This document shows positions 1,580 to 54,867 of a stretch of DNA of 64,000 nucleotides, piece by piece. The stretch lies in NCBI GenBank assembly GCA_009760855.2, contig WPIO01000157.1, positions 391,001 to 455,000 of the forward strand, in the 5' to 3' direction. Origin of the DNA: Cristatella mucedo. Lineage: Eukaryota; Bryozoa; Phylactolaemata; Cristatellidae. The notes under the pieces are model-generated. The model searched no databases. It was not told where the DNA came from and saw only the letters and a program-made list of their open reading frames with translations. Position 1 is the stretch's first letter; each line of letters begins with the position of its first letter. A program made the translations under genes and the position numbers.

Positions 1580-1714
1580 TGCCGTTGTTTTCAGAGTGCT
1601 CCAGTCAGGGGTCAAAAATGCAGCCACACCATCCCGATTGCCGTCTAGCGTCAGTCCATGGACAAGTAGTGTGATCAGTAAAAAGCCAAACACACTGATG
1701 GTGAAGTATGCAAT
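1580..1714 (-). CDS. SLC6 transporter exon: TM5 and extracellular loop 3
   Basis: 45 codons between acceptor TTTCTGATTTTAG and donor GTTAGT, phase 0 at both ends. The peptide starts IAYFTISVFGFLLITLLVHG, then 'LTLDG' and 'FLTPDWSTLK'. In SLC6 proteins this is the segment after K-G-x-K-S-x-G-K, normally V-V-Y-F-T then TM5, then 'R-G-x-T-L-P-G-A' and 'G-I-x-F-Y-L-x-P'. It joins the exon at 1852-2002 in frame. It is the last SLC6 exon I can find: the frame reads past the donor for about 20 codons to a stop, and no TM6 sequence is visible in the remaining 1.4 kb. The donor is weaker than the others. Confidence 0.8.
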
Positions 1715-1851: not shown

Positions 1852-2002
1852 TTTGCCAGATGACTTGATGCCCTTTGCCTGGAATAGAATACATGTGAAC
1901 CATATGAGGAATGAGCAAAGTGCGAGGTCGCCGTATACTGCTGACGTGTTATCTGGGCGCCTGAGATCGTCTCCCAATCCAGTTCTACGAAGCACGCGAT
2001 AC
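1852..2002 (-). CDS. SLC6 transporter exon: end of extracellular loop 2 and TM4
   Basis: 151 bases between acceptor CTGTTTTGCAG and donor GTATGC, phase 2 in and phase 0 out. After the shared Glu codon the peptide runs YRVLRRTGLGDDLRRPD, then the membrane segment LALCSFLIWFTCILFQ and the invariant SLC6 motif AKGIKSSGK. This aligns with the family pattern 'E-Y-F-x-x-x-V-L-...-W-x-L-x-L-C-...-K-G-x-K-S-x-G-K'. The Phe of 'EYF' is missing (E-Y-R). Frame joins on both sides. Confidence 0.9.
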
Positions 2003-2170: not shown

Positions 2171-2336
2171 TCGAGATATTGCCTGGCAGCCAGCTCACTC
2201 TCTACACCTGCTGCCAGAGCTGCCGTCTTGTTCCAAATACCCATAATCAATCCTGTGTCCCTTGTTACACACAGTCCTTCGTCTGTTTTCACGTATGGGT
2301 CAGTTGCATTGCAACTCATCATCTTGAGGTTGCATC
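2171..2336 (-). CDS. SLC6 transporter exon: large extracellular loop 2
   Basis: 166 bases between acceptor CCTTGTAG and donor GTGAGT, phase 1 in and 2 out. With the base carried from 6830-6973 it begins R-C, completing the family's loop-2 disulfide pair: C-G-N-D-W-N-T-Y-R-C, the same ten-residue spacing as in GABA and other monoamine-type carriers. The loop then has N-glycosylation sequons (NAT, NKT) and further cysteines, and ends AARQYLE, the usual lead-in to 'Y-F-x-x-x-V-L'. The cysteine pair created across an intron of about 4.5 kb is good evidence that these exons are joined. Confidence 0.88.
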
Positions 2337-6829: not shown

Positions 6830-6973
6830 TGTACGTATTCCAGTCGTTGCCGCAAGTAGCCCATGGCAGATCAGGATAGAAAGAGGCGTAAAAGTAGTAC
6901 AGCCCCCATGCAATTACTATACCGTAGTATATGGCCGTGATGACTGAAGTTGCCATCATTGCAAAGCCAATCC
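6830..6973 (-). CDS. SLC6 transporter exon: TM3 and start of extracellular loop 2
   Basis: 144 bases between acceptor CTACTTTTGCACAG and donor GTAAGT, phase 1 in and 1 out. The peptide is GIGFAMMATSVITAIYYGIV, then IAWGLYYFYASFYPDLPW and ATCGNDWNTY. This is the SLC6 TM3 consensus (I-Y-Y-x-V-I-x-A-W-x-x-Y-Y-x-x-x-S-F), followed by L-P-W and the first loop-2 cysteine. The tandem Tyr of TM3, which contacts substrate in this family, is kept. Confidence 0.93.
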
Positions 6974-10119: not shown

Positions 10120-12300
10120 CTAGCCACAAGACAGAATTAAAGAGCTAGTTAAATTTTTTACAAGCCACTGTGGGAGACAGCTTCTAATCTTGGATAGGGA
10201 TCGGATGTGATGGCTAGCTGTAGAGGCAGTCTTCTGAATGAAGCTTTTGAAATTGAGGCAGCTGTCGAACACGACACCTAGATTACGAGCACGTGGTGAA
10301 GGTCGCACAATAGCATCACCTATTAGAACAGGCCTTTTAATCCAGCCACACGCTTAGGGTGTCCTATGAGCAGCAGTTCGGTTTTATCGTCATTTAATTT
10401 CAGGAAGTTTTCCGACATCCAGGATCGAATATCGGCAAGGCAAGCGTTCAGTTTCTCAGTTGCTGCAGCAGATTCCGACGGTTTAAATGACAAATACAAC
10501 TTAGTATCGTCAGCATAGAAGTGATATCCTATTCCATGGGCCTTAATCAATTTTCCCAGAGGTTATGTATAAATAGAGAACAGCAAGGGACCAAGTACAG
10601 ACCCTTGAGGGACTCCACAGGTGACCCTTCTCATGTCTGAGACCTGACCCCCACACGACACGGATTGAACACGATCAGACAAGTATGATTTAAACCACGC
10701 CAGTGCTTCGTCTGCCAGACCAATCGTTGTTCTCAATCGTTCAAGCAGAACTTCGTGATCAATGGTGTCGAAGGCTGCAGACAGATCTAGCAGAGCTAAG
10801 GCGGTGACATTCCCGTCGTCGTTGCCACGTAGAATGTGATTGTCAACACGGAGGAGAGCAGTTTCAGTAGAGTGCTGCCTCTTGAAACCTGATTGAAATG
10901 TTTCTGACACTCCATTATTTTCAATATGTTCAACTAGCTGCTTAGCAACAATTTTTTCAAGAATCTTTGATAAGAACGGAAGAAGGGAAACTGGACGATA
11001 GTTTGCTAGGACCTCTGTGTCTAATCCAGGCTTTTTAAGAATAGGTCTAACGATTGACGATTTGAAGGACTTGGGGACGACCCCTTTTCCCAAGGAAGCA
11101 TTAAAAATCTTGGTTATGGCAGGGCTAAGTTGGTCTGCAAGTGAAGACCACAGAGATGAAGGTATAGGGTCTTCAAGAGACGAGCTCTTTTTGCTAGACC
11201 TTATTAAGGCAGCCATATCACAGGCAGAAACATCAGAGAACCTTTTAAGAAAGGTCACAGGTTGAGGAACGGTGATTGCTTTGGTCGGAGGGGGCTTAAT
11301 GGAATCACGAATGTGCACAATTTTTTCAGTAAAGAAGGCTGAAAACTTTTCGGCTGAGCCCTTAATATCTGGGGAGTCAGACCTCACAGCATTGGCCAGT
11401 AAATGGTTTACTGTCTTATAAATCTGTTTAGTGTCCGACTGGCAGGAATTCAGTCTTCTAATGAAAAAAGAAGCCCTGGCTTTTTTAAGCTTTCGGGTGT
11501 AAACTCGAAGGAAGTCTTTAAAATTGACTAGGTCTGCCTCAGACCCCGATTTCTTGAAACGACGTTCCAGCCTGCACTTAACACGGTGCATCTTAAGGAG
11601 TTTTTTGTAAATTGAAAGCAATCTCGACGACTTTGAACACGGATAGGGCGAACGGGAGCATGCTTGTCAAGAGCACTCCTGAGTGTCATGTTCATCGCAT
11701 CAGTGAGGGTATCGAGGCTGCCGGTCGAGTCTTAATGCAGATCAAGAAGGCCTGCATCACAAACAGATTTAAAAAACTTGTCCATGTCAATGCTTTGTAA
11801 GTTACGTCGTTTGGCAAATTCGACATTGCCCTGCACGTACGAGGGAGCAGGAACAGTAAACGAGACCGAACAATGATCTGAGAGGGTCAGTGGGCACACC
11901 ACAAAGTCAGTGGGGAGGACATCCTTAGTGATCACGAGATCTAGAATGTGGCCACCGACGTGGGTGCTATGATTAACGTGTTGGGCCAAACCAAAATTCT
12001 CCAGACAGTCAAGAAATGAGCGGACCTGGCTGTTGCTAGGGTTGTCAACGTGAATATAGAAGTCTCCTACAATCAGTAGCGGCCTGTCACACACAAATAT
12101 TTTAGCGAGGAACTCTGAAAACTCCTCTATAAACAAGTTTAGACAGCCAGAAAGAGGCCGGTATATCACAACGGTGAGAGGCATTGTCTTTGATGAAGAC
12201 CTGATAGCAAAGTGCCAGGGGCTAATGAGGCCTACTTGGAGTACCGACAAACATCTCCGGTTATATAAAGTGTGTGGACAGCAGCTCACCTGTCTCTGCT
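10120..12300 (-). mobile_element. LINE-A: non-LTR retrotransposon (CR1/L2 group), endonuclease and reverse transcriptase, inactive
   Basis: Read on the minus strand. At 11732-12289 is the C-terminal part of an AP-type endonuclease: 'VVIYRPLSG', 'LLIVGDFYIHVD', 'HILDLVI' and the catalytic 'LSDH'. At 10563-11621 is the N-terminal reverse transcriptase: 'NYRPVSLLPFLSKILEK', 'ALLDLSAAFDTIDH' and 'GVPQGSVLGPLLF'. At 10323-10550 is the active-site block 'YHFYADDTKLY'. Breaks: a stop or frame change between the two domains near 11.65-11.73 kb, an in-frame TAA near 10.56 kb, and a frameshift near 10.32 kb. It lacks the 5' end and, unusually, the 3' end: homology stops at about 10.12 kb in the middle of the 'LVKNLTS' region. 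It sits within the SLC6 intron on the same strand as the gene. Confidence 0.85.
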
Positions 12301-12695: not shown

Positions 12696-12827
12696 CTGAT
12701 ACCAGGGGACAAAGCTGAAAACTGTTCAGAACGCCACGGCTGCAAAACTGGCCGAGGGAAGCCTCCATGTAAAACAGAGGCACACCGAGTAGTATAAGCA
12801 TCAGAATGTATGGTACCGTAAAAGCCA
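12696..12827 (-). CDS. SLC6 transporter exon: TM2
   Basis: 132 bases between acceptor GTGTGTTTTGCAG and donor GTATGA, phase 1 at both ends. It reads VAFTVPYILMLILLGVPLFY, then MEASLGQFCSRGVL. The family pattern is 'G-G-G-A-F-L-I-P-Y-x-I-x-L-x-x-x-G-x-P-L-F-x-x-E-x-x-L-G-Q'. The conserved Gly-x-Pro-Leu-Phe and Glu-x-x-x-Gly-Gln residues are all present. The Gly-Gly-Gly before it becomes Gly-Gly-Val across the splice. Confidence 0.93.
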
Positions 12828-14619: not shown

Positions 14620-14773
14620 CTCCACCATTCTTGTAACAAACGTATGGGAAGTGAGTGATGTTAGAAATGCCTACTATGTAAGCAAAGTTTGATAAAGTGG
14701 ATTCATATTTCCCGCTCCAGTTTCCACGAGCAACGTTTTCATCTGCCAAGCTGTAGATCTCTGGCTTGCTTTC
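14620..14773 (-). CDS. SLC6 transporter exon: TM1 with altered signature
   Basis: 154 bases between acceptor TTATGATTTTTAG and donor GTAAGT, phase 0 in and 1 out. It reads ESKPEIYSLADENVARGNWS, then GKYESTLSNFAYIV and GISNITHFPYVCYKNGG. 'R-G-x-W-x-x-K-x-E-x-x-L' is the standard SLC6 lead-in, and 'F-P-Y-x-x-Y-x-N-G-G' the standard end of TM1. Between them the family's G-x-G-N-V-W-R is G-I-S-N-I-T-H. The sodium-site Asn is kept; Trp and the extracellular-gate Arg are replaced by Thr and His. No stop or frameshift, so this looks like a divergent paralogue rather than a decayed gene. Confidence 0.92.
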
Positions 14774-51838: not shown

Positions 51839-51936
51839 CTGAAACAAAAAAAAAAATCTTCGATGGGTCAAGCTAAAGTGCAATGAGCAAACATCTGCAC
51901 ATGTGCGACTGAAAGGCAAGATGCATTGAGTCGAAC

Positions 51937-54413
51937 CTGCAAAGCTTTTCTTATAGCCTGCCTCTCATCCTCTATTCCATGAAGTTCAGCTGCATTTCCC
52001 GACGACATCGACTGCTCAGAAGTCTTTATCGCACTTTGGAAGTCGGCCGATTGTTGAGATGACGTAAGGGCACCGGAAGAGGTGCCAATGCTTGGAATGA
52101 CCGGAGAGGATGCAGCGGTCATCGGAATGCTGTCCGCATGTGACGTCAGCTCCTCTTCCACATGAAGTGGTGCAGTGCCTTTAGGTTTAGATGTCATAGC
52201 GATATTGCTCGAAGGTTGAATAACAAATGGGCTTGCTCCTGGTATGGTTGGAGCCACTGTTTTATTGGGAAATGCATAAAATTCCTGCCCCGTAGGTGTG
52301 ACAGGTGGCGATACTAGACCCTGACCTGGATTAAAAATCACTTTCCTGAAACTGTTAGAAGATCCTTGAGCAAAGCCTGATGAAAACGGCTGTGCTCCCA
52401 AGCGAATCTCGGTTCTGGTTATAACATGCTCCACATGGTGATGACTGGTAGGGACGGTTCGTTCGTCTTGCCTCTCGTTTTGCATATCATTAGTTTGTGA
52501 CTTCGGAAGAATCCCTGACAGTGTCGATTGCCCAGAAGTTGTCGCAGTTGCATTATACACAAAAGGCGATATTTCGGCAAATGGGGCTGGGCTCTTGAGC
52601 AGTACAGGCAGCAGCGAAATGGGTGCCCTAGCATTTTGTGACAAATTGCCATCGGAGTCGTCATTTCTTGTTGGCTTGATCAGTTCATGGGGTGCAGAAA
52701 TTCCACCAACAATTGATGCTAATTTGTCAGTGTTCTTCTGTAAAGTAACTCCCTGGTCTTGTTTGGGTAGTTGCATGTCTTTCAGTGCCTTTCCAACAAG
52801 GCTATTATTCAACGTTACACTAAGCTGCTGTCGTGCCTGTGACATACTTAGTTCTTCAATTGAGTTATGCAAGTCCAGCAACTGCGTGATTGTGTGCGAC
52901 TGCTCGATCGTCACTGTCTCTATTGTTGCTGGAGCCTCTGCTGCTGGGGGTTTCAGCACAGTGGCCAACTGGTGTGAGCTAGAGGTGGTAATTTCCGATT
53001 GCCCAGAAAAGTTTGCCGTTTCTGCCTCCTGTGACTGTTCTAGTGCACTAGAAGAGCTCCACGCGGCTACCTCCTGTAGATCAGGCTGCTCGAATGACGT
53101 ATGTCGGACTGCTCTTGCAGAATCGCTGACAGATAATATTTCCGGCATATCCACAGTGGGCGTTATCTTCAAAATGGGTGGCTCCGAGATGCCGTAGATG
53201 GCCTCTTCCAGTGATTCAGAGAATTTGCTTTCGGCTGCCTCAGCTGGACCGACTGAGTCAGTGTGGTCTAATTCTAACTGAGCTTCAGACTTCTGCATTT
53301 GCATAACAATGGCATTTTGAACGCCACAAGTGTCCACCTTGGGTGATACTAGAAGTACCGAAATAGCTTCGTGCTTGGGCTGGGCAGCCACTTGGGAGAC
53401 CTCTTCAAGAACTGCAGCCTCAACCGCATTACAGCTTGTTACCTCTGATGGTTTTGCTACATCGGCTTCAATTGAGTTGGCTGGCTCATCGGTGGCCAGT
53501 GGTATAGCTGGTTGCTTTGTTTGAGTCCCACTCGGCTCCCGAAAACTGTGCTCAGCCATCTCCGTAGGCGTGGGCAACTCTTCTACGGCTGGCTGATCGA
53601 GCTCAGCACTAAATAGTGCTGGTGGTGCTTGTGGTGGCTGCATAAGCACCGAGAACGCAGGCAATGAATGGCAATGGCTTGCATCTGACGATGTTAGGAG
53701 TTCGGCTGCAGCTGACTTGTCCAGCTCAACTGTGGCTGGTAGCAGTGGGCGCTCCGTAAAATGAACCAATTTTAACGGCAGCTCACAGAGGCTAGCCGTG
53801 GCTGCCAGAATCTGCTCAGAAGCAACTACCTCCGAGCTGTAAGGCACTGCATAAGCCTCTGGAGCTAGTAGTGATGCATAAACAGACTCTGTATGATTGC
53901 AGGGTGTAACCTCTGGTAGCTGTAGCTCAGGAACTGGTACCACTCCCTCTGATTCCAATGTGTTGGGTATGATAGCAACAAATGAAGGTTGTACTATCGA
54001 TGAGACTGCAGGTTTGCTGACCTTCCAGAAAATGTCGTTCGGTCTCGTCGGTGGTATCGTTTCAGTAACCCCAGCTAACAGCTCATTCGCTGCTGCTGTA
54101 GGATTTGCTGCACATAACCCTGGTAGAAAGAGAGGTTCAGTAAAGCTGCAAGAGACCACCACCGGAGGCCCTGAGAGGTCCGGCATTTGATCCGGTGCGA
54201 CTATGGGCTTCGAGTGAGTGCAAATGGCTGCCTCCCGTGGTGGCTCGGCATGCAGGATTGGAAGAATTGGCACTGCAGCTTGTTCCACTTCCTGCGGCAC
54301 CAGGACACTGTCTGACACTGGGAGATTGCCCAAGGGTGGACACGGCTGCTCTTCTTCTACCGGCGGTACGAAGAGTGGCCCAGACTGATCCAGCAAAAGT
54401 CCTTGCATTAAAA
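51937..54413 (-). CDS. Giant exon of the large minus-strand gene: 825 codons of disordered sequence
   Basis: 2,477 bases with no stop, phase 1 in (acceptor CTTTCCTTTCAG) and phase 0 out (CAG|GTTCGA). It begins LMQGLLLDQSGPLFVPPVEE after the split Val codon. Rich in Ser, Ala, Pro, Glu, Thr and Val, poor in Trp, and without transmembrane segments or repeats I can identify. Repeated short patterns such as 'P-x-x-x-S-E-V' and 'SAELDQPAVEELP' suggest weak internal similarity. Toward the end are 'VSPPVTPTGQEFYAF' and a helix 'IEDERQAIRKALQ'. Real coding is supported by length and flanking splice sites. Function unknown; it resembles scaffold-type disordered regions only in composition. Confidence 0.82.
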
Positions 54414-54867
54414 CTGAAAGGAAAGACCAAGAGTCAGCTAAACGACTAAGAATTCAACTCCACTTGCACAGCGTTCCCAAGAAAAATAGTATGATTCGTT
54501 GTAAAAATTTAAGACAGCATCGCATTGGGATTCATCGTACCATTTTGCCATGGAAACATATTCAGTCCAAAGAATAAGCAAGCCCCACCTTCGTAAACAG
54601 GTAAGAATTTTATCAAGAAAAAACGGATATAATAAAAAAATAATAATGTCAACTGTCTTGTGCTTTAAAAGAACCAAATATCTACCCAAGTTGCTCTTAT
54701 CACGCTCAGATCAGCATGAAAACGCACATAGCAACATGCTCAGATTAGCAGGCTGAAGCACAGAAGGAGACACTCAGGACCAGTGCCTCGTTGGACCTTC
54801 GGTTAGTAACATGCACTGTATCATGCCCTGGTGAGCCCTCAAAGCACACTGGAACAAAATAGGCAAG

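Follow-up and report, generated by a model that had tools for sequence, protein, structure and literature searches.

In LeuT numbering, the extracellular gate of SLC6 transporters consists of R30, Y47, Q250, E290/S and D404, and the cytoplasmic gate of R5, W8, S267, Y268 and D369, as set out in the excerpts of PMC2194793 used here. Changes at such positions have been described in GAT1, in which those of W68 as well as R69K and D451E abolish or impair transport, and in which even an aromatic replacement of the TM1 Trp leads to the loss of surface expression and function (PMC10137170, in part). Moreover, R69K, Q291N and D451E were described as leaving GAT1 stuck in the outward-open state (PMC10352132, in part), a raised apparent Na+ affinity was found in outer-gate mutants (passages of PMC10137170/PMC10352132), and transport was regained when the Asp residues of both the inner and the outer gate were mutated together (PMC10137170). 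Regarding other positions, changes of Pro288 in TM5 of SERT abolish or impair transport, and this Pro is termed completely conserved in the family in the section of PMC11988846 cited here, while D338G and D338C of KAAT1, at the Na1 Asn position, resulted in abolished or impaired transport (PMC8310414, in part).

Natural departures at ion-site residues are found in KAAT1 and CAATCH1 (PMC8310414) and in the jellyfish CcSLC6_NAT1 (PMC6590891), for which no outer-gate loss is described in the portions of these papers considered, in contrast to the protein reported below. Furthermore, excerpts of the respective sources describe the Hartnup variant R57C of B0AT1 as being retained in the ER (PMC12368292), and SNF-12 of C. 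elegans as an SLC6-family protein located on vesicles and involved in epidermal immune signalling (PMC3309975, PMC7043892). No SLC6 protein naturally lacking the outer-gate Arg was found in the open-licence literature, as far as its accessible excerpts go, which does not prove that none exists.

The gene analysed here lies partly within a window of 64 kb (the whole stretch of DNA under analysis, C63:391001-455000), and the genome searched comprised 572 Mb in 688 contigs. Exons were located using paralogue exons of the same genome as probes, followed by reading frames and splice sites. A total of 13 coding exons, which follow one another along a single strand of the same contig, were joined, of which six are inside the window and seven to the left of it (C63:389997 down to 372276). 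The resulting open frame has 585 codons, from upstream of TM1 to a stop codon past TM12, with all phases matching and no internal stop. All the 12 introns were of the GT-AG type, partly by construction, as these dinucleotides served to set their ends. The exons, with those inside the window given in window positions, are the following:

Exon 1, 14620..14773, minus strand: TM1 lead-in and TM1 with GISNITHFPY (Trp-Arg changed to Thr-His), phase 0 in and 1 out.
Exon 2, 12696..12827, minus strand: TM2, with PY and ME-x-SLGQF kept.
Exon 3, 6830..6973, minus strand: TM3 and the first EL2 Cys; in IYYG the Tyr is kept, and the next residue is Gly versus Asn in GlyT2.
Exon 4, 2171..2336, minus strand: EL2 with the second Cys (C-x8-C) and two N-glycosylation sequons.
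Exon 5, 1852..2002, minus strand: TM4 with KGIKSSGK.
Exon 6, 1580..1714, minus strand: TM5, with the GX9P motif broken (Pro changed to Phe).
Exon 7, C63:389997-389894, minus strand: TM6, left of the window.
Exon 8, C63:386288-386164, minus strand: TM7, left of the window.
Exon 9, C63:384725-384613, minus strand: EL4-TM8, left of the window.
Exon 10, C63:381400-381272, minus strand: TM9, left of the window.
Exon 11, C63:375994-375895, minus strand: TM10, left of the window.
Exon 12, C63:372683-372583, minus strand: TM11, left of the window.
Exon 13, C63:372479-372276, minus strand: TM12 and the stop codon, left of the window.

Exon 1 (14773-14620, minus strand) translates in frame 0 as ESKPEIYSLADENVARGNWSGKYESTLSNFAYIVGISNITHFPYVCYKNGG, so the motif GISNITHFPY, which the earlier note had read at these coordinates, is real and belongs to one minus-strand exon. 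The same note had assigned six exons of the window, corresponding to TM1, TM2, TM3, EL2, TM4 and TM5, to an SLC6 gene, and these do form an open chain in phase. An in-frame stop precedes the acceptor of the TM1 exon, and thus at least one further upstream coding exon must exist; the first coding exon or exons upstream of the TM1 exon were looked for and not found. Exon 4 was chosen by scanning for a matching phase, splice sites and a Cys, so that only the Cys spacing counts as independent evidence, and the C-terminal tail of the model is based on open reading only. In the TM1 exon, the codons ACT CAC stand where Trp and Arg are expected, and the change from TGG to ACT takes three bases, hence a single base error cannot produce the TM1 Thr. 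No second TM1 exon was found within C63:352001-465000, the nearest look-alike there being NVFRFPM (E 2.1) inside a stop-rich stretch.

Regarding other contents of the window, intron 2 of the model holds a retroelement remnant, probably of the non-LTR class (window 10563-12298, minus strand), with a match to the reverse transcriptase family RVT_1 (E 1.7e-22) and endonuclease matches under the Pfam cut-off. At 51868-54453 (minus strand), 861 codons lie open between two stops and match no Pfam family, perhaps belonging to an adjacent gene as one of its exons, with a 250-codon open stretch on the opposite strand at 52445-53197. No Rfam family matched within the window at gathering scores. Elsewhere in the genome, COX1-like stretches on large contigs (C166:4375626-4376390 and C83:2826-3735) are probably nuclear mitochondrial insertions, and COX1 on contig C688 reads open with TGA as Trp; in the latter, AGR, ATA and AAA occur at what we take to be Ser, Met and Lys sites, which suits the invertebrate mitochondrial code and makes a protostome the probable source. 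The introns and the SLC6 genes likewise point to an animal genome.

The joined protein matched the Pfam family PF00209 (SNF) with an E-value of 7.5e-127 over profile positions 1-522 of 524, and its best match among solved structures was GlyT2 (SLC6A5; 9wbr, E 1.6e-113). Both proteins can be aligned from the TM1 lead-in to TM12, with 204 identical residues out of 540 aligned, although GlyT2 has all five outer-gate residues, the TM1 Trp, the TM7 Asn and the TM5 Pro. As to the 12 transmembrane helices expected of the family, a simple hydropathy method yielded 18 windows that overlap, with TM1 not among them. EL2 contains Cys 136 and Cys 145 together with the sequons NAT 153, NKT 179 and NTS 217. 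When the genome was searched with the joined protein, the 13 top matches were its own exons, while the identity of single exons at other loci did not exceed 55% among the best candidates scored. No well-supported grouping with GlyT sequences emerged from a tree of 20 sequences, several of which were incomplete; its terminal branch measured 1.15 substitutions per site, compared to 0.46 for the next longest, with bootstrap values of 12 and 11% at the two nodes beside it. The gene reads as single-copy and fast-evolved, with an intact coding frame.

The gate positions were mapped onto the protein through the GlyT2 alignment. With the gates as listed in the excerpts mentioned above, the extracellular gate reads H, Y, L, N and S, four of the five residues being replaced (Arg by His, Gln by Leu, Ser by Asn and Asp by Ser), while the cytoplasmic gate retains all five (Arg, Trp, Ser, Tyr and Asp). 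The TM10 Asp, where the earlier note had suggested looking for a co-substitution, is indeed the Ser of VTVLSQG, and the TM1 Trp is Thr. Among the side chains of the Na1/Cl- site, the TM1 Asn, TM2 Tyr and TM6 Ser are kept, while the TM7 Asn is replaced by Ala, the TM6 Gln by Leu and the TM7 Ser by Asn. Both TM7 assignments depend on an ungapped alignment of the weakest-matching exon (5 out of 42 residues identical to GlyT2), and shifting it by one helical turn would place the TM7 Asn at the Na1 position. The Asp and Ser of the Na2 site in TM8 are kept (GVDSQ), as are the TM2 Glu, TM3 Tyr, TM6 Phe and EL2 Cys pair. In the TM5 GX9P motif, the Gly is kept and the Pro has become Phe, in a stretch without any Pro. 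The retained features named in the earlier note (TM1 Asn, TM3 Tyr, EL2 Cys pair and KGIKSSGK) are present, with the caveat that the scan for exon 4 required its Cys; the loss of Trp-Arg stands too, but its account of the change fell short, as the TM6 Gln, the TM7 Asn and Ser and the TM5 Pro are also changed, with the inner gate intact. Arg57 of B0AT1 is presumably the outer-gate Arg, and ER retention of the present protein would be possible by analogy with R57C, as far as that variant is described in the portion of its source used here.

A genome search with the TM1 exon gave 14 matches, namely its own and 13 others, and Trp-Arg was kept in all 13 others. This comparison was made outside the SLC6 fragment on contig C98, and no TM1 exon was detected for a fragment on C653 and a second SLC6 gene on C676 in about 6 and 4 kb, respectively, upstream of their TM3 exons. 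In those same-genome paralogues in which the respective exon was found, the conserved residue was present in every case: Trp and Arg in 13/13 each, the TM6 Gln in 8/8, the TM7 Ser in 6/6, the TM10 Asp in 5/5 and the TM5 Pro in 6/6. The TM7 Asn was looser (N, E, N, D and N in five paralogues), and the TM2 Tyr, kept in the protein under study, was Phe in 4 out of 10. Among individual loci, the TM7 Na1/Cl- Asn is Glu in L004 (C177) and Asp in L008 (C155), the latter recalling the Asp of KAAT1. A cluster of at least four SLC6 genes at C11:8537561-8691702 has Phe for the TM2 gate Tyr in all three TM2 exons read. Genes on C676 and C550 (L016, L017 and L044) show GFGS in TM8, with Gly for the Na2 Asp, and Phe in TM6 for the inner-gate Tyr, and an SLC6 gene on C34 has Ser at the Na2 Asp position of TM8.

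Prokaryotic relatives were represented by the 80 best out of at least 456 confirmed ones, a sample that leans to close relatives, and were searched for with patterns from TM6 and TM7 that were free of outer-gate positions and included the inner-gate Ser-Tyr. Among these 80 best, and with gaps making up the rest, Arg was found in 74/75 (with one Lys), Trp in 75/75, Gln in 80/80 and Asp in 78/78, so that Arg, Gln and Asp were all kept in 72 of the 73 sequences readable at the three positions. The TM7 Asn was present in 75 of the 80, the other five having Asp, and G-x9-P in 76, while the four remaining sequences were truncated or masked in that stretch. The TM7 Ser/Glu position was freer in the same sample (Ser 55, Glu 21, Ala 2, Gly 1 and Asn 1). 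SLC6 relatives were not found in viral contigs, and none of the compared relatives, which included GlyT2, the 80 best of at least 456 prokaryotic sequences and the paralogues of the same genome, carried this set of changes.

A total of 77 columns were invariant in the compared sequences, of which the protein keeps 55 and differs at 22. In a leave-one-out version of this count, the 14 same-genome paralogues kept at least 81%, over fewer columns. The four outer-gate columns among the 77 (R, Q, S and D) all fell within the lost 22, with a hypergeometric P-value of 0.005 (0.019 without R), which is indicative only since the test was post hoc and its set was chosen after the Arg had been seen. On the other hand, the retention of the four inner-gate columns was unremarkable on its own (P-value of 0.25).

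The possibility of decay was addressed by simulating 585 codons without selection or indels, with 1000 runs per divergence. Only 4.4% of 1000 runs remained free of stops at 5% divergence, and 0/1000 at 10%. Moreover, starting from the GlyT2 residues, at least 10 base changes are required across the six codons affected (TM1 Trp and Arg, TM6 Gln, TM7 Asn and Ser, and TM10 Asp). Ten changes in six codons occurred in 0/1000 runs at up to 20% divergence; at 50%, a level for which about 17 stops would be expected, the proportion was 6.8%. As at least 10 changes in six codons coexist with 585 open codons, the changes were most likely fixed while selection held the frame open. Neutral decay does not account for the changes in this gene, since its frame would not survive long without selection. 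In this regard, the second SLC6 gene on C676 (3534508-3537233; L005, L043), located near the first one there, has the appearance of a paralogue in decay, as its TM2 and TM3 exons contain in-frame stops, compared to no stops in the 13 exons of the gene under study.

A pseudogene in early decay was consequently set aside as the main reading on the grounds of the open exons and the simulation, and we regard it as improbable: the long terminal branch and the missing first coding exon would fit it, whereas the 13 open exons, the scarcity of stop-free runs (with indels left out), the number of changes concentrated in six codons and the 55 of 77 invariant columns kept argue against it. An assembly or gene-model artefact, such as a wrong exon, a chimera or a base error, seems very improbable indeed. 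Such an origin could be suspected from the weak similarity of exon 4 and the TM7 exon to known sequences, and from intron ends that were placed during the analysis, but the altered residues are spread over exons up to about 30 kb apart, the 13 exons are ordered on one strand of one contig, and a search of 113 kb revealed no better exon for TM1, TM5, TM6, TM7 or TM10. A single base error would not account for the three differences of the TM1 Trp codon from TGG, and an alternative canonical TM1 exon was not found nearby. The earlier note had named an assembly error, stops in the missing exons and relatives with the standard Trp-Arg beside a copy decaying alone as evidence against its reading; no sign of an error and no stop in the seven outside exons were found, while the other TM1 exons of the genome do show the standard pair. 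The word functional, which it had applied to this paralogue, would hold only in the sense of a frame kept open by selection for most of the divergence, and between its two options, altered gating or a non-transporting protein, our reading leans to the second.

The explanation that we prefer, with about an even chance of being correct, is that of a pseudo-transporter, that is, a constrained and fast-evolved SLC6 protein lacking the usual Na+/Cl- coupled cycle, most likely with an outward-facing binding, sensing or scaffolding role, as far as the residues allow it to be predicted. The outer gate, parts of the Na1/Cl- site and the TM5 hinge would have been dismantled, with the scaffold, the TM8 Na2 residues, the EL2 Cys pair and the inner gate being kept. 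The outer pathway could then not close in the usual way, the normal Na+/Cl- coupled alternating-access cycle would not be run, and the protein would rest facing outward, binding, sensing or scaffolding at the cell surface or on vesicles rather than acting as a pump. Since transport was lost or strongly impaired, in the cited portions of the literature, by changes at the same positions that are here all altered together, ordinary Na+/Cl- symport is unlikely, and the intact TM8 Na2 residues and inner gate make an outward-facing ligand- or Na+-binding protein the preferred reading. The likeness to the GAT1 outer-gate mutants (R69K, D451E and Q291N; PMC10352132, PMC10137170, in part) lies in the same gate positions being altered, although those were conservative laboratory changes in a normal carrier, whereas the whole set is altered in a natural gene here. 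SNF-12 indicates, as far as the excerpts describe it, that an SLC6-family protein can sit in a signalling pathway; its likeness is limited to the suggested role as a signalling platform and was drawn from descriptions. Against the pseudo-transporter, a pure scaffold would need less than what is kept here, namely the inner gate, the TM8 Na2 residues, the TM1 Asn, the TM2 and TM3 Tyr, and the Phe and Ser of TM6. Furthermore, the literature describes the changes in transporters that are otherwise normal, and a protein evolving all of them may have compensated; in GAT1, the double mutant of the two gate Asp residues did regain transport (PMC10137170, in part).

A serious rival, which we consider less probable than the preferred reading, is a carrier that still works, its outer gate having been rewired and its coupling altered: driven through Na2, independent of chloride, and with a weaker or pH-sensitive gate. 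The parts of that gate would be the TM1 Thr-His and new partners in TM10 or TM7, namely the Ser, the upstream Glu of GYEM and the Asn at the Ser/Glu position, the pH sensitivity through the His being a speculation. The kept TM8 Na2 residues, TM1 Asn, TM6 Phe-Ser and entire inner gate are consistent with such a carrier, as is the joint change of the outer-gate residues, which a co-evolved set would show; an Asn at the TM7 Ser/Glu position was also seen once in the prokaryotic relatives (80 best of at least 456), and a departure at the TM7 Asn is described for KAAT1 and CAATCH1 as well (PMC8310414, in part). However, the TM5 Pro described as completely conserved (excerpts of PMC11988846) is gone with no Pro left in that stretch, the TM1 Trp, whose aromatic replacement in GAT1 cost surface expression and function (PMC10137170, in part), is lost, and the set of changes has no equal in the relatives compared, those from prokaryotes being the 80 best of at least 456. 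As to the preferred pseudo-transporter, a more specific and tentative form of it, to which we would give somewhat less than an even chance, is a natural SLC6 lineage in which the outer gate was removed as a unit and an outward-open pocket, its inner gate and Na2 site being intact, reports ligand or Na+ occupancy to the cell with no movement of the ligand. If true, such a lineage would be nature's equivalent of the GAT1 gate mutants locked in the outward state.

The Arg-Asp pair of the outer gate belongs to the best conserved features of SLC6 carriers, and changes there disabled the carriers tested in the cited parts of the literature. A constrained natural protein without the outer-gate set would represent either an alternative gating mode of the LeuT fold or a transporter turned sensor, and either outcome would separate the residues serving transport from those serving the fold only.
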